In this document: piece by piece, positions 9,335 to 26,891 of the stretch | Position numbering within the stretch: the stretch's first letter is position 1 | Layout: each line of letters starts with the position of its first letter | Assembly: GCA_949297275.1 (NCBI GenBank) | Contig: CASFQR010000009.1 | Coordinates: 1-33,023 of the forward strand | Length of the DNA stretch: 33,023 nt | Source of the DNA: an uncultured bacterium | GTDB lineage: Bacteria; Bacillota_I; Bacilli_A; RFN20; CAG-826 | Direction: 5' to 3' | The notes under the pieces: model-generated | The model's input: only the letters and a program-made list of their open reading frames with translations | Told to the model about the DNA's origin: nothing | Databases searched by the model: none | Made by a program: the position numbers and the translations under genes

Positions 9335-12184
9335 ATGGAAGTAGCGGTTGGCTCAACAAAAAAAATTAAAAAGGGCGCGATATTTTCATATCTAACAATC
9401 ATCTTTGAAGTTTTAGTAAATTTTCTTCTTCTACGCTATTTAACTAGAGGCTTAGGAGATAGTTATGGTTTATATACACTCGCACTTAATACGATAAGCA
9501 TTTTTTTAATTGATTTCGGTCTAAGTCAATCCGTTACTAGATTTATCGCTAAATATCGCATAAACAACGACGCTGAATCTGAAAATAGATTCTTGGGTTT
9601 AATAGCTAAAATTTATTTAATTATTGATGCTTTTATCGTTATAGCGTGTGTAGTCGTCTTCTTTTGTATCCCATATATCTATGGTGGTTTAACATCTACT
9701 GAAATCGGCGACTTTAAAATAGTTTTTATTATTGTTGCAATTTATTCTTGCCTTTCTTTCCCATTTTTACCTTTAAATGGGATTTTAAATGGTCATGAAG
9801 AATTCTCAATTATCAAAATTTTATCAATGGTGCAGAAGGCTCTGACCACAATATTATTAGCCTGTTGTTTAATTTTTAATTTAGGCCTTTATTTTGCTGT
9901 GTTTACAAATGTGATATCTTCAGTGATAATCATTACCATTAAAGCGTTTTTTGTCTTTAAAAAATGTCACATTCGACCAAAATTAAATTATCGCGATAAA
10001 AAATTATTAAAAGGCATCATTGGTTTTACAATTTGGATTGCTATATCTTCGATTGCGTCGCGAATTTCTTTAAGCATTATGCCGACTCTTTTAGCTACAA
10101 CTCGCGATTCGGCTACGGTTGCTATCTTTGGCATTGCAATTACCTTTGAGACTTATGCTTTTATGTTTTCATCTGCTATCTCTAATTTATTCTTGCCGAA
10201 GGTGACAACATTAATAAGCCAAAACAATTTTGATGCAATTAATAAATCGTCAATTAATATCGGCAAATTTCAAATTATGATTGCTGGGCTCATTGCTAGT
10301 GGCTTCATCATTTTTGGACAAGATTTTCTTAATTTATATTTAGAACCGATCTATTCTGCCTCTTATTTACCGACGATCCTTTTGCTTATTGATGTTATCT
10401 TTAATACCATTTTTATAATTCAACAAAATGTTTCTTTTGCGATGGGGACCATCAAGCAAGCCTCAATTATTGAACTCACCGTATCAATTGTGCGTCTAGG
10501 CTTATGCTGGATGTTTGGTTATTTTTACGGCATTCTTGGTTTAACCATTTGTTATTTATGTGGCACGATAATTATTAATGGTCTGAAATGTTATTTTGTG
10601 TATTATCGCCGACAAAATTTTGATATTAAAAAATTTTTATTAAATGTTTTTGCTTTATATCTATTTCCTTTCGCGTTATCTCTATTAGCTGGTTTTCTCC
10701 TAGTTTACACTTTTGATACTTCAACCTGGGGTTATTTAATTGCTACAATCATCATTTATACAATCGTCTATTTATTCATTATGTTTGTTTTATTCCTTTC
10801 TAAAGGCGAACGAGCATCAATTGTTAATACCTTGTCTAAACGCACCCCTTTTGTTCAAAAAATTAGTGACGCGTTAATTAAAGTCGATAGTAAAGATGCC
10901 TTTGTGCCTAGATCATTAGCAATTGTTTTGCTAATTCTATCCTTTTTTGCCTCTTCATATCCTTTGAATGATATTTCTTTATTAGCTGTCTTATTTTTTG
11001 CTGTTATTGCTCTTATTGCCTACATCTATTTTCGTTTTCCTCTTGCTTTATTTAAAGATAAAAAGGTTGCCAAAAAATATTTTAGTGATGTCTCTTTATG
11101 GTATGTGATTATTTTTAGTATTTTAGTAGTGGTGTCAATGCTTGCAACTAGGAGTTTTAATACAGTTTTTGGCGTTGGCAAATTTCTCATTACAATTTGG
11201 TCAGCCTATTTGTTTGTTAAACTATTTTCATTTAAAACATTCTATAAATTATTCAAAAATCTCTTTTTTGCCATTTGCATTATTTCACTTTTCTTTACCC
11301 TCATTATCTTTATTAACGGCGAAAACTTTTCTAATTTAATTGTTAATGATTTATATTTCAATTATTTTTATATTTTCTTCTCGATCACTTCTTCTAGTAT
11401 TTTAGGAAACAATTGCGCGATCTTTTGGGAACCAGGTATTTTTGCCTCTTTTTGTTTGATTGCTTTAGCAATGCTAATTATTTTTGATAAAGATAAATGG
11501 TATAAACAATTACCATATTACTTGGTATTTGGTGTTTCTTTAATTAGCACTGGCTCACTAGCGGGATATATTTTAATTGTCTTTTTAGTTCCGCTTTTTT
11601 TGGTTAAAATCAATAAAAAAATTACAACAGTTTTGGCTTGGATTATCACCGTTATATTTGGTATTGGTGTTATTGTTTGCATCCCAATGATTGGCACAAT
11701 CTCGGAACTTTTCCCATATATTGCCGAAAAAGGCGTGAGCCTAACAACAAGAATATATGCGATGTTTGTTGATTTTGAAATCTTCTTAAAATTTCCTCTT
11801 TTTGGAGCGGGAAGTTCCTATCAATATTATTTCCAACTGATTTCTGAAACCAAATATCCTGGTTTACTAGATACTTCTTTAAATACATTTACCTACCTAT
11901 TAGGTGCTTATGGTATAGCGGGTATTTTATTTATTTTATTCTTTTGTTTTGCTTTTTTAATGAACAAAAAAGTTAGCCTTATTAATCGATTATTATGTTT
12001 TCTTTTAGTAATTTTAATATTTATTAAAGAACCACATCAAATGTCCTTATTATCAAATATCTTCATCTTTTATCTTGCTAACGACAATTATCTAACATCC
12101 GATAATAAAAATAACCCAAAATTTGTTCATTCAACCATCTTTCAAAAATTAAAGGATAAGAATCATGAAAAAGAACTGGCTTAA
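9335..12184 (+). CDS. Fused Wzx-type flippase and Wzy/O-antigen-ligase-like polymerase
   Basis: One uninterrupted 949-residue integral membrane protein. Residues 1 to about 490 match the polysaccharide/oligosaccharide flippase family: an N-terminal KKGAIFSYLTIIFEV helix, a FLIDFGLSQSVTRF loop at about 57-70, and roughly 12-14 helices. These would flip lipid-linked repeat units. A basic, soluble linker at about 490-523 leads to a second block of about ten helices with Wzy/ligase features: EPGIF at 699-703, STGSLAGY at 738-745, FPLFGAGSS at 820-828, and NTFTYLLGAYGI at 850-861. This block should join exported units. Flippase and polymerase are normally separate genes, so the fusion is unusual. 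The next gene overlaps by 20 bases. Domain calls are by motif and hydropathy; the fusion itself is seen directly. Confidence 0.85.
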   Translation: MEVAVGSTKKIKKGAIFSYLTIIFEVLVNFLLLRYLTRGLGDSYGLYTLALNTISIFLIDFGLSQSVTRFIAKYRINNDAESENRFLGLIAKIYLIIDAFIVIACVVVFFCIPYIYGGLTSTEIGDFKIVFIIVAIYSCLSFPFLPLNGILNGHEEFSIIKILSMVQKALTTILLACCLIFNLGLYFAVFTNVISSVIIITIKAFFVFKKCHIRPKLNYRDKKLLKGIIGFTIWIAISSIASRISLSIMPTLLATTRDSATVAIFGIAITFETYAFMFSSAISNLFLPKVTTLISQNNFDAINKSSINIGKFQIMIAGLIASGFIIFGQDFLNLYLEPIYSASYLPTILLLIDVIFNTIFIIQQNVSFAMGTIKQASIIELTVSIVRLGLCWMFGYFYGILGLTICYLCGTIIINGLKCYFVYYRRQNFDIKKFLLNVFALYLFPFALSLLAGFLLVYTFDTSTWGYLIATIIIYTIVYLFIMFVLFLSKGERASIVNTLSKRTPFVQKISDALIKVDSKDAFVPRSLAIVLLILSFFASSYPLNDISLLAVLFFAVIALIAYIYFRFPLALFKDKKVAKKYFSDVSLWYVIIFSILVVVSMLATRSFNTVFGVGKFLITIWSAYLFVKLFSFKTFYKLFKNLFFAICIISLFFTLIIFINGENFSNLIVNDLYFNYFYIFFSITSSSILGNNCAIFWEPGIFASFCLIALAMLIIFDKDKWYKQLPYYLVFGVSLISTGSLAGYILIVFLVPLFLVKINKKITTVLAWIITVIFGIGVIVCIPMIGTISELFPYIAEKGVSLTTRIYAMFVDFEIFLKFPLFGAGSSYQYYFQLISETKYPGLLDTSLNTFTYLLGAYGIAGILFILFFCFAFLMNKKVSLINRLLCFLLVILIFIKEPHQMSLLSNIFIFYLANDNYLTSDNKNNPKFVHSTIFQKLKDKNHEKELA

Positions 12185-13427
12185 ATATCTCATTTCTTCA
12201 ATAATATCTCTCTTGGTTTTTTCCGCCACTTTAGTTTCTTTTTCTTTCGGTTCACAAAATCAGCTTTCTTTATTAAAGGACGATTTAATTAATTACGCCT
12301 CTAGTATTGAAGAAAGATTATATTTTTCTATTGATAACGCTCCTAATAAAATCTCATCGCTTTTGAATTCTTCTGCTTTATATAATTTAGAAAATCGTTA
12401 TCGAACATACGCCTTAGCGACTAGGATGTTTACTGAAAACTTTTATTTTTCTATTTCTTATGATGATTCGATATTAGAAAAAGATATCAATTTATTAGAA
12501 AGTAAAGAATCGCCACGCGATAACCAAGATTTTATTTATCTAGGTAATCTACCTATTTTAGATGGCGAAAGATTAGATTTAGATAATGATAATTATTATT
12601 CTCGTTATAGTTTTTTATCTAGTAGTGATGATGCAATATATATCCCAGAAGATTTCGCTAACGAGATATGTGAACAATTTAATTTAGATGGCTACAAAGA
12701 TATTATATTTTCCGATGATGTTAATTCGGGTTATCTATCAAAAATTAAGGTTGAATTAAAGAATGTTTTAGATGATGAATTTTCTTATGAATGTAAATTG
12801 CGCGGAGTTTATTCTAATGAAAGCCAATTAGCGAATGAATTAAAACATATTCCTAATAATCAAAATATTCCTAATATAATTTGTTCGCCAGCCCTTTTTG
12901 ATAATATTGATTGGGCAATGGACACACTTTTATGTGTCTTTAAGCCGCCGCTATCAGCAATTTATGTTGAAAATTATGGTCGCTTTTTAAATGTTTTAGA
13001 AAGTGCGAGTCAAAATAAAAAAATTAATATTAATTTTGATTGTAACCTGAATGAAGAAATTGCTAATTATTTTAATAGTAGAGTTGAAACAATTAATAAT
13101 TATTTCTTTTTTAATTATCAGTGGATCTATTATCTAATTGGTGCAATTTTAGCCCTTTCTTATCTAGGTGTTATCATCTTCTATTTACGAAAGTTTAAAA
13201 CTAATTTTTATATCAATATAGCTATCTTAGTTGGAACTTTCTTGATATCTTTTATCGTTTTACATTTTATTAATTTCCCCAATATAATTATTCCTTCTAA
13301 TTCATCGTTGTATTGGACAATATTATGTCTAGCTTTTTATCTTATTCCTTTGTTTTTACTATGTTATCCAAAGTCCAAACCAGAAAAAAATCAACTACAA
13401 AATCTTTATGAGGAAATTTATATTTAA
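12165..13427 (+). CDS. Membrane protein with FtsX/MacB-like topology, function unknown
   Basis: A 420-residue protein with an N-terminal helix at about 6-28, a large extracytoplasmic domain (30-315) and three C-terminal helices (about 318-340, 348-369, 380-400). This one-plus-three layout, together with a DDAIYIPEDFANEI segment near 155-168, recalls MacB/FtsX-like ABC permeases and their external core domain. No ATPase gene is adjacent, and sequence similarity is too weak for a firm call. It starts within the end of the flippase-polymerase gene after an AAGGA, so the two are translated together. A role in export or length control of the polymer is inference from position. Confidence 0.6.
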   Translation: MKKNWLKYLISSIISLLVFSATLVSFSFGSQNQLSLLKDDLINYASSIEERLYFSIDNAPNKISSLLNSSALYNLENRYRTYALATRMFTENFYFSISYDDSILEKDINLLESKESPRDNQDFIYLGNLPILDGERLDLDNDNYYSRYSFLSSSDDAIYIPEDFANEICEQFNLDGYKDIIFSDDVNSGYLSKIKVELKNVLDDEFSYECKLRGVYSNESQLANELKHIPNNQNIPNIICSPALFDNIDWAMDTLLCVFKPPLSAIYVENYGRFLNVLESASQNKKININFDCNLNEEIANYFNSRVETINNYFFFNYQWIYYLIGAILALSYLGVIIFYLRKFKTNFYINIAILVGTFLISFIVLHFINFPNIIIPSNSSLYWTILCLAFYLIPLFLLCYPKSKPEKNQLQNLYEEIYI

Positions 13428-13435
13428 GAAGTAAT

Positions 13436-14575
13436 ATGTCTAAATCCAAATGTTTTATTTTATGTAATGTAAATAATGCGCTGTCATCATACCTTTTTGC
13501 GTCCAATGCCGGTAGTAATTTATCCTATTATATCGCTAATTCACTTCCAAAAAATTATGATGTATACCTTTTAAATGTCGGTGCGCCTATAAAAAGATGG
13601 CCATTTAAAGAAAAAAACCATCAATTCCAAGTTAATTCATTAACAATAATTGAATTTGCTGGTGGATTAACTATTTTACCTACAAGAATTAAAGCCAAAT
13701 TAATTATTAAACGCGCGATTAAATTCGCTTTAAAAAACAAAGAAACAGGTGATAAAATCATTGTTTATCATTCATTGTCATTCTCAAAATATTATCAAAC
13801 TCTTATTGATTCATTCTCTCCTAAGAACGCAGTTTTATTTGTTGCCGAGTTATATTCTGATGTAGGTAATATAAAATATCCAGTTATAAAAGAAATCGAT
13901 TATATTAAGGAATTTAAAAAGACGATCATGATTTCGCGTTCTCTTTATCGCAAGATCTTTAAAGAGTCAAAGGAGAATCAAACAATATTTTTATATGGTG
14001 CATATAATTCACTTAAAAATCTTGCTCATAAAAGTAATAGTGATTTAATTCATGTTGTCTATGCTGGCACTGCCTCGAAAATTAAAGGTGGACTTTTTAA
14101 TATTCTTAATGCGTCTAAATTGTTACCTAAAAATTATCTTATTCATATCTTTACCCAGGCTGATGAGTCACTAATAAATTATTTAAAATCGTTCCCGGTT
14201 AGCTATGATGGTTATGTTAATGAAAACGAATTATTAGAAATCATTCAGCTTTACGATATCGGTTTAGCCACTCAAAATCCGCATTTAGTATTTAATGAAA
14301 GTTCCTTTCCTTCAAAGATTATTACTTATTTAGCGTGCGGCTTAAATGTTGTCTCCTCTAAATCCATCAGCGTTACCGATTCCCCCTTTTTAGATAAGGT
14401 TATCTTTTATGATGAAGATGAAAGTGGAGAGAATTTAGCCCAAGCAATTATTAAATCAGCAAATCACATTAATAGAGCAGAAAACGCGAAATATATTTCT
14501 CAATTAGATGATGAATTTAAAGCAAATTTATCAAATTTATTAGAAGGGGGATCTGATGAAAGTTTTTATCATTAA
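13436..14575 (+). CDS. GT-B-fold glycosyltransferase
   Basis: A 379-residue protein with an N-terminal region that could bind acceptor (CNVNNALSSYLFASNAGSN, then YYIANSLP) and a clear GT4-like C-terminal domain: VVYAGTASKIKGG at about 203-215, a GYVNENELLEII helix near 260, and the donor-site block NESSFPSKIITYLACGLNVV near 286-305. The Glu and the SFPSKI element are typical of retaining GT-B enzymes that act on lipid-linked saccharides at the inner face of the membrane. It lies 8 bases after the FtsX-like gene, with a weak AAGAAG as ribosome site, and overlaps the next transferase by 20 bases, so it is within the operon. Sugar specificity is unknown. Confidence 0.75.
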   Translation: MSKSKCFILCNVNNALSSYLFASNAGSNLSYYIANSLPKNYDVYLLNVGAPIKRWPFKEKNHQFQVNSLTIIEFAGGLTILPTRIKAKLIIKRAIKFALKNKETGDKIIVYHSLSFSKYYQTLIDSFSPKNAVLFVAELYSDVGNIKYPVIKEIDYIKEFKKTIMISRSLYRKIFKESKENQTIFLYGAYNSLKNLAHKSNSDLIHVVYAGTASKIKGGLFNILNASKLLPKNYLIHIFTQADESLINYLKSFPVSYDGYVNENELLEIIQLYDIGLATQNPHLVFNESSFPSKIITYLACGLNVVSSKSISVTDSPFLDKVIFYDEDESGENLAQAIIKSANHINRAENAKYISQLDDEFKANLSNLLEGGSDESFYH

Positions 14576-15737
14576 CGGTAACGCGAAAATTTCCTCTTGG
14601 CAAATTTGTCAGAATATTTCTGAAGCGCTTACTAAGCGCGGCAATCAAGTATATGTTGCTACTCCAGATGAAAAACCGCATGACTGTAATTTTAATTATT
14701 ATCAAATTGGAAATAATATAAATCGTCGATTCAACCGTCTATTAACTCATTTAGATGGTTCCGATGGTTTTAGAAATTATTTAGTTACTCGTAAATTGAT
14801 TAGATATATTAATAAGATAAAACCAGATGTAGTCCATTTACATACATTGCATGGTTATTTTATTAATGTTTCTTTGCTTTTAACTTATTTAAAAGATAAC
14901 CATATTAAAACAATCATAACTTGTCATGATTGTTGGTGGTTTACTGGTCGCTGCGCGCATTTTTTTAAAGACAATTGTGATAAATGGCAAACGCTTTGTC
15001 AAAATTGTCAACATAAAGCAAATTACCCTAAAACTATATTAATAGATCGTTCTAAGAAATATTTTTTACTGAAAAAAAGAATATTTGCCGCCTACGATAA
15101 TTTGATTATTACGTGTGTCTCTAATTGGTTAACTAATTTATGTTCACAATCACCATTTTTTCAAAATAAACGCCTTGTTACCATCTATAATGGCGTTGAT
15201 CCTAGTGTTTTTCAATTAAAAAAGATCAGAGAAAAATCTTCGCAGATTAATTTAATAAGCGTTGCTAATCAGTGGGGAAAAAGTAAAGGCTTAGATATGA
15301 TTCTAGATCTTGCCAATAATTTCCCAACGATTAATTTTACTCTTGTTGGTCAAATAAATAGCAACATCCATCTTCCTAAAAATATTAACCATCTTGAAAG
15401 AACATTAACTATTCAAGAATTAAATGACTTATATTGCGCGCATGATGCTTTGCTTAATTGCTCTAAGCAAGAAACTTTCTCTTTGATAAATATTGAAGCC
15501 CAAATGTGCGGCTTGCCGGTTATTTGTTTAGCGGACACTGGTTGTCTAGAAACAATTGATTTACAAAATTCTTTTCCGGTTGAGCGTTATGATCTTGCGT
15601 CTTTTAGTGCAGTAATCAAAAAATTTCTTGAGCTAAAAGATAATATTAATCATCAGGCATTACGAGAATTTAGTGAAAGATTTTCAAAGGATATAATGGT
15701 TGAATCTTATTTAAAACTTTATGATAAAGACTATTGA
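14556..15737 (+). CDS. Family 4 glycosyltransferase
   Basis: A 393-residue GT4 enzyme. The acceptor domain has HLHTLHGYFIN at about 94-104 and the Cys/Trp-rich block TCHDCWWFTGRCAHF at 122-136, followed by further cysteines at 141, 148 and 151. These features mark a GT4 subgroup found in exopolysaccharide and capsule loci (WcaC-like). The donor domain has YNGVDPSVF at 211-219 and the EX7E pair E306/E314 (KQETFSLINIEAQMCGLPV). SD AAGGGGG lies just before ATG 14556, inside the preceding gene. It stops with TGA, which argues against TGA being read as Trp here. It probably transfers a hexose or deoxyhexose to the growing repeat unit; which one is not visible. Confidence 0.88.
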   Translation: MKVFIINGNAKISSWQICQNISEALTKRGNQVYVATPDEKPHDCNFNYYQIGNNINRRFNRLLTHLDGSDGFRNYLVTRKLIRYINKIKPDVVHLHTLHGYFINVSLLLTYLKDNHIKTIITCHDCWWFTGRCAHFFKDNCDKWQTLCQNCQHKANYPKTILIDRSKKYFLLKKRIFAAYDNLIITCVSNWLTNLCSQSPFFQNKRLVTIYNGVDPSVFQLKKIREKSSQINLISVANQWGKSKGLDMILDLANNFPTINFTLVGQINSNIHLPKNINHLERTLTIQELNDLYCAHDALLNCSKQETFSLINIEAQMCGLPVICLADTGCLETIDLQNSFPVERYDLASFSAVIKKFLELKDNINHQALREFSERFSKDIMVESYLKLYDKDY

Positions 15738-16826: not shown

Positions 16827-18020
16827 ATGAATTTAAAAGAAATACGCAAAAACTGCAAATTAACTCAAAAAGAAGCTAGTGAAGTTATCGGCATGCCTTT
16901 ACGCACATATGTATTGTATGAACAAGATGAAATCCACGCTGATCAACTTAAATTAGAAAGAATTAAAGAAAAATTGATGGAATATATCGCTAAAGATACA
17001 TCAATTTTAAAAGATAAAATTTTATTAATTACGGGTGGAACCGGATCTTTTGGGCACGCTGTTGTTGATCGTTTTCTAAATACTGATATTAAAGAGATAA
17101 GAATTTTATCGCGCGATGAAAAGAAACAAGATGATATGCGAAAAGCATACAATAATGAAAAATTAAAATTCTATATTGGGGATGTGAGAAATTTAGATTC
17201 AATTATCGATGTCTTTAGAGGTGTTGATTATTGTTTTAGCGCAGCTGCTTTAAAGCAAGTGCCTTCTTGTGAATTTTATCCAATGGAAGCCGTTAGGACC
17301 AATGTCTTAGGTTCAGATAATGTCATCACCGCCTGTGTGCGTAATCATGTTAAAAAAGCCATTTTCTTATCAACCGATAAAGCCGCTTACCCCATTAACG
17401 CGATGGGTATTTCAAAAGCTTTAATGGAAAAAAATGTTATTGCTCGCAGCCGTCAATTATTAGAGGGTGATACAATCTTATGTTTAACTAGATATGGTAA
17501 TGTTATGGCGAGTCGCGGCTCAGTCATCCCCTTATTCTTAAATCAAATTCATGAAGGCAAACCAATTACTATTACTAATCCCAATATGACGCGCTTTATG
17601 ATGACGCTTGATGATGCTGTCGACTTAGTGCTCTATGCTTTTGAACATGGAGAGCAAGGCGACTTATTCGTGCAAAAAGCTCCATCAGCCACTATTGATA
17701 CTTTAGCGAAAGCTATCATTAATTTAACAAATAGTGAGACCGGTGTAACTTATATTGGCACGCGACATGGCGAAAAATTATATGAAACACTCGTCACCCA
17801 AGAAGAGATGCTCAAAGCCATTGATTTAGGTAATTTCTTTTGTATTAAAGCTGATAATCGCGATTTAAATTATGATAAATATTTCTCTAAAGGCAACAAA
17901 GCATTAAATTTAGGGGAAAGTTATACTTCGCATAACACAAAGCGACTAGATGTAAAAAGCATGGAAGAATTATTAAAGAAATTAGAGCTTTTTGGTGGAC
18001 CAGTTAAACAACATGAATAA
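16827..18020 (+). CDS. capE: UDP-N-acetylglucosamine 4,6-dehydratase/5-epimerase (CapE/FnlA type) with N-terminal HTH
   Basis: This enzyme performs the first step to UDP-N-acetyl-L-fucosamine: dehydration and C5 epimerisation of UDP-GlcNAc. The SDR domain starts at about residue 62: Rossmann GGTGSFG at 70-76, SAAALKQVP at 138-146, STDKAAYPINAMGISK at 182-197. Met193 takes the position of the usual YxxxK tyrosine, as in CapE-type enzymes, and Lys197 is kept. The C-terminal RHGEKLYETLV signature is present. Unusually, residues 3-35 form an XRE/Cro-like helix-turn-helix (IRKNCKLTQKEASEVIGMPL). This makes the protein 397 residues against about 340-345 for CapE/FnlA. It may bind DNA, for example its own promoter; that is inference. 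SD GAGGT precedes ATG 16827, and capG follows 15 bases after the stop. Confidence 0.92.
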   Translation: MNLKEIRKNCKLTQKEASEVIGMPLRTYVLYEQDEIHADQLKLERIKEKLMEYIAKDTSILKDKILLITGGTGSFGHAVVDRFLNTDIKEIRILSRDEKKQDDMRKAYNNEKLKFYIGDVRNLDSIIDVFRGVDYCFSAAALKQVPSCEFYPMEAVRTNVLGSDNVITACVRNHVKKAIFLSTDKAAYPINAMGISKALMEKNVIARSRQLLEGDTILCLTRYGNVMASRGSVIPLFLNQIHEGKPITITNPNMTRFMMTLDDAVDLVLYAFEHGEQGDLFVQKAPSATIDTLAKAIINLTNSETGVTYIGTRHGEKLYETLVTQEEMLKAIDLGNFFCIKADNRDLNYDKYFSKGNKALNLGESYTSHNTKRLDVKSMEELLKKLELFGGPVKQHE

Positions 18021-20564: not shown

Positions 20565-23462
20565 ATGATTAATAAAAGATTATTTATTACCAATGGCTTA
20601 ATATATTTCACTTTTATCCTTGCATTTATTTTTACATCTAATTTAGCCATCTTTGATTTTGGAGCGTATAATCGCCCTTTTTCAACAGTTGAATATTCTT
20701 TACTTTTTAGCGTTCTTACTATTCTAATTGGTTTAACTTTATATCTCGAATTTAAGAAAAACAATATTCGGCCAAACTATCTTGTTCTCATCTTATTTTT
20801 AGGATTATTTATCTCTAATATCATCGCAACCTTTTTAGTGCCCTCAAATGTCGATATTACCTTTGTGGGCACGGATGGTTTAACTTATATTACTAATGTC
20901 ACATCTTCTCTAAGTGATCGAATTTATAATATCTTAAATAATGGTGTCACCATTTTATTAACATATTTCCTCTTCTTTATTTTGCCCCATAAATTCCATT
21001 ATCGAAAGCAATTAAATTATTTGTTTTACGCTGTTACAATCTTTACTATCGTTATTATTGCTTATACTTTTTTTGCTGAACTTGAAACTTATCGGACGAT
21101 TTGGGATGGTCTAATTCGCGGGTTAGATGTTGCCTATCAAAAAGTTAAATCAATCTTTATTAATGGCAATAATTATGGTTTTGTCATTTTATTAGGTATT
21201 ATCGCTTTAATTTATTTAAATAATAATCGCCCGAATGTTATCTGGTATCTCTTAATGATTGTTTTTTATTTAGCGATGATTTTCTCTTTATGCAAAACGA
21301 CAATTGCTATTGCCACGATAGTTTTGCCATTTTATATGATCGCGCGCTCAATCGTGACGATGAAAAAACATCAAATTCGTAATATCTTTCTTTTAGTTAC
21401 TCTTTTATCAATCATCACTGCTTTTGTTATTATCGTTGGCCTATCAACTAAATATGATAATTTACCGATTTTAAAGCAAATCAATTTCTTCTTAAATGAC
21501 ATTTTTAAAGATCATGGTACATCAACGATGGATTCTCGCGGCTATTTATGGTCGCTTGGTTATCAAATCATTAAGCAATTCAATTTATTTATTGGGGTCG
21601 GGAAGAATCAATTTGGAGAATTGCTCTCTAATATGCAAGACGGCAACGGTCAATCATTAAATAATTTAATCTATGTTCATAATGGTTATTTAAATATTTT
21701 AGGTGAAGGCGGACTTTTATTAGCCTTCTTTTCCTTAGGAATGTTTATTTATGTTTTATATGTTGCGATTAAAACCTTTAAATATGATAAAAATATCGTC
21801 TTTTATAGCGCTTTAGGTTATGCGATTTTATTTGTCTATATGTGGGCAGAAACCCCCGCCTTTATTTTTGCCTCTTCTTTAGAGCACTTCTTATTTATTG
21901 CAATGATTAATTTACCATTATTTAGTCGTTATTATTATTTTAATCACCCTTATTATAATCACGAAATTCTTTATTATGGTTTAAATGATGAATTATATCA
22001 GGTCAAAGAAGATAATAATTTTAGTTTAATTAAACCATTCTCGTTTATTCTTCTTCCCTTATTAGGTGTCGCTTTATCGTTTTTATTTTATTTAGCAATT
22101 ACTAACAATATATCTTGGATACCGTTTTATAGTGTTTTAGGTATAACTTTATTCCTCTTATTAGTGTTACCAATCTTTTTAGAAGGTATTCGTTACCGTG
22201 TTAAAAAACTAAAAATAAATAAAAAGAAATTCTTTCTTGAATGTTATCTTGTTCCATTTATTTATCTTATTAGTGTTCTCTTTATTACTAATCTTGTCTT
22301 TTATTTATTACCTAATCCCACCTTTACTATTTTATGTTATGTAACAATTTTACTTGTTGTTATTTTTTATGCTTTAAGTGCGTTAATTAAACCTTTAAAT
22401 CATTTATTAGGCGTGAATGCTTTCTTTAATCATCTCAATAACCTCTTTATTAAAATTTATTGTCGTGGAATTAAAAAAGATCTTAGTCAAAAGATTGAAA
22501 TTAATCCTTATACTCCTGATGAAAAGCGGCATCTATTATTAATTGCTCCTAAAAAGACTTATCACCTAGATGAAATTATTACTGGCATAACAAAAATGAA
22601 TTTTGTTGTTGAAGTCTATTCAAACGATTTAATCTTAAATAAATTTGAAAAATTATTAGTAAAAATTAATCCTAATTTAATCTCTTATCAAAGCGAGCTA
22701 TATTTAGAAGATATCGCCATTAAAGTTTTAAATAAAAAATATACCCATATCGTTATAATCGATGAACCTTATTTAAATAAGCGTTTATTAAAGAATCTAT
22801 TTTTAACTCACCTAAGCGCGCATAAGATTTATTTAAGGTGGCATAAGATGAATCGCTCACGCGCTTTTATTAAATTATTTGATAAAGCTTATTTAGTGGC
22901 AAAAGAAAAAGCTAAACAAAAGAAATATTATCATCAAATTGAACAATTCGCCTCGACAAAATTTTTAATTAATCATCAAGAAAATAATCAATTTGTCTAC
23001 GGCAATTTATTAACTAAAAATAATCTTAATTTACTCAATAAACTCAATGCTTATTTAGTTAATCCTTTAAGCGGTTATTTTGTTAAAGAAGGCTATGATT
23101 TGCATCAATTCGCGACGCCTGATTTTTTAATTAAATATCATGGTCACGCGCATTATGAAAAATCTTTCGCGGATGTTTATCAAACTTTTGTGAACGCTAA
23201 ATATGTGTTGTTATTAGAAAAGAATAATTATTTCATTATTCATAATTATTTAATTGAAACATTATATTCTTATCGCAAAATTATTGTGCCTTATCTAGAA
23301 CAATTAACTTCCGATGAATTATATCAAGAAAATAATCTTTATCTTTATGATCAAATATTAAATTATGATCATCCTTTCTTCCGCGATAATTATCGCTTAT
23401 TTCCGCAAGAAATTTATCGACGATATCATATTAACCAATTCTTAAAAGAAGTATTAAAATAG
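20565..23462 (+). CDS. O-antigen-ligase/Wzy-like membrane protein with a large C-terminal cytoplasmic domain
   Basis: A 965-residue protein in three parts. Residues 1 to about 455 form a Wzy_C/O-antigen-ligase-like block of around 11-12 helices with DSRGYLWSLGYQII at 323-336, GVGKNQFGELL at 344-354 and the hallmark HNGYLNILGEGG at 372-383. A second set of about four helices spans 490-615. Residues about 640-965 are soluble, begin with a strand KRHLLLIAPKK followed by alternating strands and helices, and resemble a degenerate transferase or nucleotide-sugar-binding fold, but I cannot assign a family. It could polymerise the repeat unit or ligate the finished glycan to an anchor. Transcription is probably separate from capF, with no SD at ATG 20565. 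It is followed after 16 bases by the flavodiiron gene. Confidence 0.75.
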   Translation: MINKRLFITNGLIYFTFILAFIFTSNLAIFDFGAYNRPFSTVEYSLLFSVLTILIGLTLYLEFKKNNIRPNYLVLILFLGLFISNIIATFLVPSNVDITFVGTDGLTYITNVTSSLSDRIYNILNNGVTILLTYFLFFILPHKFHYRKQLNYLFYAVTIFTIVIIAYTFFAELETYRTIWDGLIRGLDVAYQKVKSIFINGNNYGFVILLGIIALIYLNNNRPNVIWYLLMIVFYLAMIFSLCKTTIAIATIVLPFYMIARSIVTMKKHQIRNIFLLVTLLSIITAFVIIVGLSTKYDNLPILKQINFFLNDIFKDHGTSTMDSRGYLWSLGYQIIKQFNLFIGVGKNQFGELLSNMQDGNGQSLNNLIYVHNGYLNILGEGGLLLAFFSLGMFIYVLYVAIKTFKYDKNIVFYSALGYAILFVYMWAETPAFIFASSLEHFLFIAMINLPLFSRYYYFNHPYYNHEILYYGLNDELYQVKEDNNFSLIKPFSFILLPLLGVALSFLFYLAITNNISWIPFYSVLGITLFLLLVLPIFLEGIRYRVKKLKINKKKFFLECYLVPFIYLISVLFITNLVFYLLPNPTFTILCYVTILLVVIFYALSALIKPLNHLLGVNAFFNHLNNLFIKIYCRGIKKDLSQKIEINPYTPDEKRHLLLIAPKKTYHLDEIITGITKMNFVVEVYSNDLILNKFEKLLVKINPNLISYQSELYLEDIAIKVLNKKYTHIVIIDEPYLNKRLLKNLFLTHLSAHKIYLRWHKMNRSRAFIKLFDKAYLVAKEKAKQKKYYHQIEQFASTKFLINHQENNQFVYGNLLTKNNLNLLNKLNAYLVNPLSGYFVKEGYDLHQFATPDFLIKYHGHAHYEKSFADVYQTFVNAKYVLLLEKNNYFIIHNYLIETLYSYRKIIVPYLEQLTSDELYQENNLYLYDQILNYDHPFFRDNYRLFPQEIYRRYHINQFLKEVLK

Positions 23463-25379: not shown

Positions 25380-25438
25380 ACTTCTAGATTTACTTCTAGA
25401 TTTTTGCCATTTTACTTCTAGGACTTCTAGATGATGAA
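25380..25438 (+). repeat. 59-bp direct repeat, copy A
   Basis: It matches copy B (26914-26972) at 57 of 59 positions in the same orientation. It contains the unit ACTTCTAG four times, at 25380, 25391, 25414 and 25423. It overlaps the last codons and the TAG stop of the AlbA_2 gene and covers most of the short gap after the membrane-protein gene. Confidence 0.9.
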
Positions 25439-26869
25439 TACTTCATCGCGATTTGTTAAATAAGTATCAGCCTTATTGGAAACATCTTTTTCTAAAAGAT
25501 GTTGATTCACTAACTTACCGAGGATGTCGTTTCTTAAATAAGAAGATATTTTAATACCAAGTAAAGCCGCTATTTCCGATATCGTCTTCTTTTCATAATA
25601 ACAATAACTTAGGATTTTTCTTTCTTTTTCACTTAGTTGATAACCATTATTTGTTTGGAGTTTTAGATCTGTTGTTGTGCTTTTAATTACGCCAGAAGCA
25701 AAATTAACATTTGGCATTGTCAAAGCAAAAAATGAAGAATCGGCATTGACAAATGGTTGATGATTTCGATCATAAAGCGAATATTCTTCCTCAATTAAAT
25801 CAAAGCCACTGCCTTTTTGTTCCATATATTTTATTAATCTTAATATTTCCGAAATTAAAGGGTTTCTTCTAGTAGGAAGAATTGAGGCAATATCATATTC
25901 ATTCTTTAATTCGCGATAATTTAATAAAGATCCCGGTGAAACAATTTCTAAACGATCAGGATAAATATTTATTTCAATTGGAGCATTTAAATAATAATTC
26001 TTATGAGCGTAAGCATTAATAATACCTTCAAATACCGCGCGTTGAGGATAAGAATAAATTGTTTCTCGCCCACGATTTTTCTTCTTTTCTAGTGTGTAAT
26101 TATATTTGTTGATAAAATCTAATATTAAGTCGATATTTTCTAAAATATTTTTATTTAAATCACCACTTGTGAGGTATTTTTTGCCGCCTTTAGATACATT
26201 GAACCAATATTGACAAGTCGTTAATGTTTCTTCAAGGTGGAGATTATCTTGGAATAATGTCGCTCCGCGGGCTAAAAAACCTTCTTGATCAAAAAAGCCG
26301 ATTGAGGAAAGAATCTTTTCATTTAATGCTTCACCATTATTTTCGTAATATACCTTGTAAAGTTTAGTAAAGTTATTTTTATCAAATTTGATATCAGTTT
26401 TTTCTTTATCATATGGATACATGGCCTTATTAGCAAATAAAGCATTCATTTGGCTAGGGGTTGCTAAAGAGGTGCGACCTTCTTCGCGAATAAAGACGCT
26501 CGAAAAACCATTAAATTTTAAATAATATATTTCATTTCGTTTAGTGATGTTTATTTTTAAAATGTAGAGTTTTTTATCATCATGTAAAAAAGGTAAATAT
26601 TCAAAATTATAGACGATAGGGGGATAAATATGTTCTTTAACTTCGCGAATAAATAATTGTACTTGTTCATCAATTATTTTACTTGTTAACCCACTTTTAG
26701 CGACATCACTTTGATTGACTCCGATATATAAGGATCCACCTAAAGTATTCGCAAATCCAACAACCGTTTTTAACCAAGATAAGGCCTTATCTCCGCTATT
26801 AAGGATTTGCTTCAATTCTGTCGTTTTTGTTTCTAATTCTGGTATTTCTAATAATTCTCTTTCTACCAT
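25427..26869 (-). CDS. AlbA_2 / HATPase_c_4 / winged-helix putative regulator
   Basis: A 480-residue protein of the former AAA_4 (divergent Schlafen-related AlbA_2) family. The N-terminal AlbA_2 domain has ETKTTELKQ near 12-20 and VVGFANTLGGSLYIGV near 34-49. The middle has an HATPase_c_4 domain with FEGIINAYAHKNY and DRLEIVSPGSLL, then EQKGSGF. The C-terminal part (about 415-480) is a winged helix, KERKILSYCYYEKKTISEIA. Such proteins are commonly annotated as putative DNA-binding regulators and sometimes lie in defence or mobile regions. ATG 26869 is chosen over GTG 26875 because AAAGGAG then has normal spacing. A -10 box lies at 26897-26892. The gene sits exactly between two 59-bp direct repeats, so it may be a mobile cassette or may bind those repeats. 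Confidence 0.85.
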   Translation of the reverse strand: MVERELLEIPELETKTTELKQILNSGDKALSWLKTVVGFANTLGGSLYIGVNQSDVAKSGLTSKIIDEQVQLFIREVKEHIYPPIVYNFEYLPFLHDDKKLYILKINITKRNEIYYLKFNGFSSVFIREEGRTSLATPSQMNALFANKAMYPYDKEKTDIKFDKNNFTKLYKVYYENNGEALNEKILSSIGFFDQEGFLARGATLFQDNLHLEETLTTCQYWFNVSKGGKKYLTSGDLNKNILENIDLILDFINKYNYTLEKKKNRGRETIYSYPQRAVFEGIINAYAHKNYYLNAPIEINIYPDRLEIVSPGSLLNYRELKNEYDIASILPTRRNPLISEILRLIKYMEQKGSGFDLIEEEYSLYDRNHQPFVNADSSFFALTMPNVNFASGVIKSTTTDLKLQTNNGYQLSEKERKILSYCYYEKKTISEIAALLGIKISSYLRNDILGKLVNQHLLEKDVSNKADTYLTNRDEVFII

Positions 26870-26891
26870 AATCACTCCTTTGCTAGTACAT

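Follow-up and report, generated by a model that had tools for sequence, protein, structure and literature searches.

Natural fusion of a Wzx-type flippase and a probable polymerase of the Wzy_C superfamily in one reading frame of a surface-polysaccharide locus, with related fusions in other genera

The closest described counterpart of the locus considered here is the Wzx/Wzy-dependent pathway, in which the flippase Wzx (PF01943) and the polymerase Wzy (PF04932) are separate proteins acting with an initiating phosphoglycosyltransferase (PF02397) and a chain-length regulator of the Wzz/PCP type. A Wzx-Wzy-Wzz complex has been proposed on genetic evidence (Marolda 2006, as cited in PMC10030265), and in Rhizobium PssP has been proposed as the bridge between flippase and polymerase in a PssL-PssP-PssT assembly (PMC5748678). 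Data on the physical cooperation of Wzx and Wzy are rated as fragmentary in a review (PMC5748678). Within the openly readable full-text literature no report of a natural Wzx-Wzy fusion was found, and an uncommented entry in architecture databases is possible.

The window analysed here (the whole stretch of 33,023 nucleotides, contig CASFQR010000009.1) is contig 9 of a reduced source genome (G000) of 1.04 Mb in 38 contigs, estimated as 85% complete. As in the described pathway, the PF01943 and PF04932 families stand beside glycosyltransferase and nucleotide-sugar genes, but in the window they form one polypeptide, which probably serves a surface-polysaccharide pathway of the Wzx/Wzy type as a natural single-chain flippase-polymerase. 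The idea of flippase and polymerase in one assembly is shared with the proposed Wzx-Wzy-Wzz and PssL-PssP-PssT complexes; in those, Wzz or PssP is the proposed bridge and the evidence is genetic or two-hybrid, whereas the link in the window is covalent. The parts of the protein are as follows.

9335..12184, plus strand: Wzx-Wzy fusion CDS of 949 aa; a single ORF with PF01943 and weak PF04932 matches, kept in a second species (G045)
9335..10840, plus strand: Wzx/MOP flippase half, residues 1-502; PF01943 and a match to the stand-alone flippase of G087
10799..10897, plus strand: junction, residues 489-521, net basic by its count of K/R against D/E, probably cytosolic
10853..12157, plus strand: Wzy_C-superfamily polymerase/ligase half, residues 507-941; weak PF04932 and a relative in G004

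The original prediction of one unbroken frame, free of stops and frameshifts, holds: the ORF starts with ATG, runs in one frame with zero internal stops, and has the same layout in the second species. The motifs that it quoted (EPGIF, STGSLAGY and FPLFGAGSS) are all present in the translation, and the short basic linker that it described is found at residues 489-521, SKGERASIVNTLSKRTPFVQKISDALIKVDSKD, with seven K/R against four D/E. Its division of the protein into two parts is retained, and only the limits have moved, from residues 490 and 523 to about 502 and 507, where the profiles place them. The basic residues fit a cytosolic linker, in which case both halves would start and end in the cytosol and could be joined in either order.

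The N-terminal half was predicted to be a Wzx-type flippase, and residues 1-490, scanned apart, bear this out with 75.0 bits against Polysacc_synt (PF01943; cut-off 28.2), the match spanning residues 12-285. Many stand-alone flippases of 500-580 aa among the ORFs of relatives match this half, the best being a 510-aa flippase of G087 (33% identity, E 1.3e-78). In NCBIfam the fusion protein has a weak WZX_like match alone (24.7 vs 300 bits). A PDB search with the flippase half itself returned no match, and a PDB profile search with the Wzx alignment returned nothing credible. By its family, the half would flip a glycan linked to Und-PP. A flippase 34% identical to it is also found in a 6.9-kb record from human faeces filed as 'Bacteriophage sp.' (MT837923.1:5513-6907), although its DNA may be of bacterial origin; scans of viral contigs with single proteins found no relatives.

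The C-terminal half had been read as Wzy- or ligase-like. Its 427 residues reach 25.2 bits (E 1.6e-5) against Wzy_C (PF04932), under the cut-off of 31.7, so that better evidence was sought in its relatives. These are the N-terminal 440 residues of proteins of 840-933 aa, the best at about 30% identity and E 1e-30 (G004); the G004 protein carries Wzy_C at 44.8 bits, above the cut-off, followed by Polysacc_synt at 24.9 bits, just under it. When 18 relatives are aligned, 13 match PF04932 at E<=0.01, two of them (G004 and G051) above the cut-off, and F, E, S, K, R, G and G are invariant throughout. Judged by these homologues, the half very probably belongs to the Wzy_C polymerase/ligase superfamily; the assignment thus stands through homologues above the cut-off and not through the protein's own score. 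A PDB profile search with the Wzy alignment gave nothing credible, the number of solved structures matching either half by sequence being zero, and an AlphaFold2 model of the single 949-aa sequence was unusable (pLDDT 41.5, pTM 0.27).

The fusion is the first of four closely spaced genes, the other three being as follows.

12165..13427, plus strand: 420-aa membrane protein with 1 TM, an ectodomain of ~290 aa and 3 TM; its CDS shares 20 bp with the 3' end of the fusion CDS
13436..14575, plus strand: putative glycosyltransferase with a weak GT1 match (PF13692, 17.6 bits), in the same operon
14556..15737, plus strand: GT4-type glycosyltransferase (PF13439/PF00534 above cut-off), in the same operon

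Both glycosyltransferases have counterparts next to fusions elsewhere. The gene that immediately follows the Wzy-Wzx fusion of G012 encodes a protein 34% identical to the first (E 4e-46), and the one that immediately follows the Wzy-glycosyltransferase-Wzx fusion of G005 a protein 32% identical to the second (E 2e-55). Farther along the locus lie genes for a UDP-GlcNAc 4,6-dehydratase-like protein, a UDP-GlcNAc 2-epimerase and a CapF-like protein, and these suggest that the locus makes a FucNAc-type sugar. The dehydratase-like protein (Polysacc_synt_2; 16827-18020) has an N-terminal Xre-type HTH_3 domain at residues 3-46. At 25427-26875, on the minus strand, a single protein combines Schlafen AlbA_2, RecG-like HATPase_c_4 and sigma-70 region 4-like matches. 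Promoter-like sites show no excess over shuffled sequences. Initiating phosphoglycosyltransferases (PF02397), as in the described pathway, were found in 12/12 fusion carriers tested, two of them in G000. The described pathway also has Wzz/PCP (PF02706), in contrast to G000 (85% complete) and G045, where no match was detected, and to most other carriers: the family was not detected in 12 of 15 and matched in three.

The 420-aa protein is of interest in this respect. Behind Wzy-Wzx fusions the next CDS usually overlaps by 4-31 bp, and behind most of them it encodes the same topology of 1 TM, ectodomain and 3 TM; several of these downstream proteins are themselves fused on to a glycosyltransferase. 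The link in sequence between the 420-aa protein and these counterparts is weak (hhalign probability 82.5), and it weakly suggests that they are one family. FtsX/MacB-type proteins share the arrangement of 1+3 TM with an ectodomain, but the operon in the window has no ABC ATPase gene beside the 420-aa protein, for which there is also no MacB_PCD/FtsX profile match; of 14 such 1+3-TM proteins, one matches MacB_PCD weakly (E 0.029, below any cut-off). A PDB profile search with the alignment of 1+3-TM proteins gave nothing credible. In G101 a flippase and an ectodomain/3-TM module form one protein of 952 aa (L144:5024-7882), with which a Wzy_C gene overlaps by 73 bp. The 420-aa protein is a candidate third component of a flippase-polymerase machine. 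That the family uses a three-part machine free of Wzz, in which a dedicated 1+3-TM ectodomain protein, the product of the next and overlapping gene, accompanies the joined flippase-polymerase and either stands in for the chain-length regulator or leads the chain out, is a tentative idea, and on balance an unlikely one.

In the working proposed for the locus, the neighbouring glycosyltransferases would make an undecaprenyl-PP-linked repeat unit, which the N-terminal MOP half would flip, while the short cytosolic linker would tether the Wzy_C half to the flippase half. Hand-over would be local: once freed by the flippase in the outer leaflet, the lipid-linked unit would lie next to the polymerase, and the Wzy_C half would take it up at the outer face, in the same membrane patch, and polymerise it. 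The product of the overlapping gene that follows, the 1+3-TM protein, would be part of the same machine, perhaps helping to set chain length where Wzz is undetectable. We infer the two activities, the physical hand-over and the membership of the 1+3-TM protein in the machine, and it is from the fusion itself that a coupling of export to polymerisation and an enforced 1:1 stoichiometry would follow.

A search for the same architecture in related genomes, as the original prediction had proposed, yielded the second species and repeated fusions in related genera. Wzx and Wzy_C are joined in 22 genomes from 12 of the 35 genera sampled, all in the same GTDB family as the window, and in four layouts.

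Wzx-Wzy: three genomes (G000, G045 and G037, the last from another genus)
Wzy-Wzx: 15 genomes, with 14 complete proteins and one split between contigs (G056)
Wzy-glycosyltransferase-Wzx, 1371-1390 aa: three genomes (G058, G005 and G019)
Wzy-Wzx-pyruvyltransferase, 1213 aa: one genome (G131)

The G037 fusion (995 aa) has Wzy_C at 44.7 bits in its C-terminal half, its Wzx half being recognised by a custom-built profile only. In the triple fusion of G058 Wzy_C reaches 41.2 bits, above the cut-off, and in G131 all three Pfam matches exceed their cut-offs (54.2, 79.4 and 92.8 bits). Profile-profile comparison links the C-terminal halves of the Wzy-Wzx proteins to the N-terminal half of the window's protein over 392 columns (16% identity, hhalign 99.1%, E 9e-19), and a comparison of the Wzy profile with the Wzx profile gave no match. 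Since the custom-built profiles included the window sequence, their E-values for the window are not independent. The teichoic-acid flippase TacF (PDB 9xzn), a stand-alone protein, matches the Wzx part of the G131 fusion in sequence (E 6e-10); the likeness is to that part and not to the flippase half of the window.

With these subfamilies as queries, limited class- and phylum-wide samples gave no match in a fused frame outside the family, where Wzy and Wzx are separate neighbours; wzy and wzx overlap there by 11 bp in G534 and by 8 bp in G406. A flippase tree of 56 rows needs five changes between being fused and unfused to Wzy. The 14 flippases of the Wzy-Wzx layout form one clade beside the unfused G576, G534 and G381, and the window pair, G037, the triple fusions and G131 each fall outside it; according to well-supported branches the Wzx-Wzy order must have arisen twice, once for the window and once for G037. 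Some rows are long-branched (G131 and G037), and the number of origins is therefore given as about five, in both orders and in different flippase subfamilies. The window's Wzy may or may not descend from a Wzy-Wzx fusion whose flippase was exchanged; the Wzy tree is too poorly resolved to favour either, and the test of the Wzy-Wzx polymerases as one clade gave p-AU 0.10.

Other joined proteins are encountered in these genomes. Fusions of Acyltransferase_3 and a Wzx flippase, 866-875 aa long, occur in G133, G102 and G094 (L048, L049 and L050), and Wzy_C-GT4 fusions of 787-809 aa at L137:2387-4798, L138:3046-5466, L147:3335-5698 and L142:4003-6432, one of the genomes with such a fusion (G424) being outside the family. 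A 937-aa protein of G184 (L057:4330-7143) consists of a flippase and a C-terminal stretch, ~420 residues long, with the look of a repetitive extracellular domain.

At a rather low probability, gene overlap and the compaction of reduced genomes may have produced the fusion incidentally, and the halves would then act as if separate, free of mechanistic coupling. Consistent with this, Wzy_C frames of at least 600 aa make up 19 of 35 in the window's family and 4 of 115 in other families (phylum sample, among the matches listed), wzy and wzx genes overlap in relatives, and acyltransferase and other domains are likewise found joined to Wzx. Against it, about five joinings have brought together the same pair of functions, in either order and with flippases of different subfamilies, where accident would have given mixed partners more often, a comparison biased by the use of Wzx and Wzy queries in the searches. 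The fusion may nonetheless partly reflect a general fusing habit, because the family also joins Wzy_C and Wzx to glycosyltransferases, acyltransferase and ectodomains.

PF04932 is common to Wzy polymerases and ligases, and the O-antigen ligase WaaL, which has a conserved catalytic His within an HN motif, shares with the C-terminal half both the superfamily and the conserved R...G.G region. The half could thus be a ligase or O-oligosaccharyltransferase, the fusion coupling flipping to transfer on to an acceptor and the polymerase being another protein, for example the following one, 8 kb downstream in the same locus.

20565..23462, plus strand: second Wzy_C protein, 965 aa, with a C-terminal extension of ~500 aa, a possible ligase; PF04932 33.2 bits, above cut-off

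The His-Asn motif of ligases bears on this choice. Three other fusions (G037, G131 and G058) keep it where ligases have their conserved His, which favours a ligase. The window's subfamily differs from WaaL in this stretch: all 18 rows aligned for the half lack His-Asn, the window reading LNTFTYLLGAYG and the typical row AQTSTxxYxL, whereas the 965-aa protein retains it (YVHNGYLNILGEGG) and is thereby the better ligase candidate. A ligase in the fusion is accordingly rated as improbable, and the C-terminal half is likely a polymerase, one that would polymerise lipid-linked repeat units to judge from family, gene context and the missing ligase-type His. A paralogue of the 965-aa protein (973 aa; G000:C2, L056:3600-6521) lies directly behind an initiating phosphoglycosyltransferase gene; both have Wzy_C at the N-terminus and a C-terminal part of ~500 aa with no Pfam match. 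A flippase remnant in the middle of the 965-aa protein, hinted at by BLAST (E 5e-4), was dropped after profile comparison (probability at most 2.7).

Internal initiation, or proteolysis at the linker, could also yield two proteins from the one ORF. Candidate starts exist in or near the junction (GTG at codon 524; TTG at codons 500, 532 and 544), but no ATG lies between codons 483 and 602, no Shine-Dalgarno-like sequence was seen upstream of the alternative codons, and the linker is intact in both species, which makes such a separation very improbable.

The whole protein was matched in one further genome only, G045 (CASFSG010000016.1), a second species of the genus, with the same 949 aa at 96% identity over residues 1-949. 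The two ORFs differ by 142 nt and 35 aa with no indels, junction included; 105 of the 142 changes lie at third codon positions, and dN is 0.016 and dS 0.192. The resulting dN/dS of about 0.09 means that purifying selection acts across the junction. No match to the fusion was obtained in G018 (100% complete), a third member of the genus, and such patchy presence within a genus is usual for surface-polysaccharide loci. An assembly error joining two genes, suggested by nothing except that the contig is an assembled one of metagenomic type, can be dismissed almost entirely, since assemblies this far apart would not share one and related fusions occur in many genomes. Of the two outcomes named beforehand as refuting the original prediction, neither was encountered; the prediction mentioned neither the other layouts nor the membrane protein that accompanies the fusion.

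Taken as a single-chain flippase-polymerase, the protein bears on a long-standing question, as physical cooperation of Wzx and Wzy has long been argued from genetics, and natural fusions that arose about five times, with either partner first, argue strongly, by the logic of gene fusion, for a direct link. Their repeated joining in different orders suggests that flippase and polymerase really work side by side. The fusion offers one protein for purifying, imaging and assaying flipping and polymerising together, and it brings a structure of the Wzx-Wzy pair within reach without the trapping of a transient complex.
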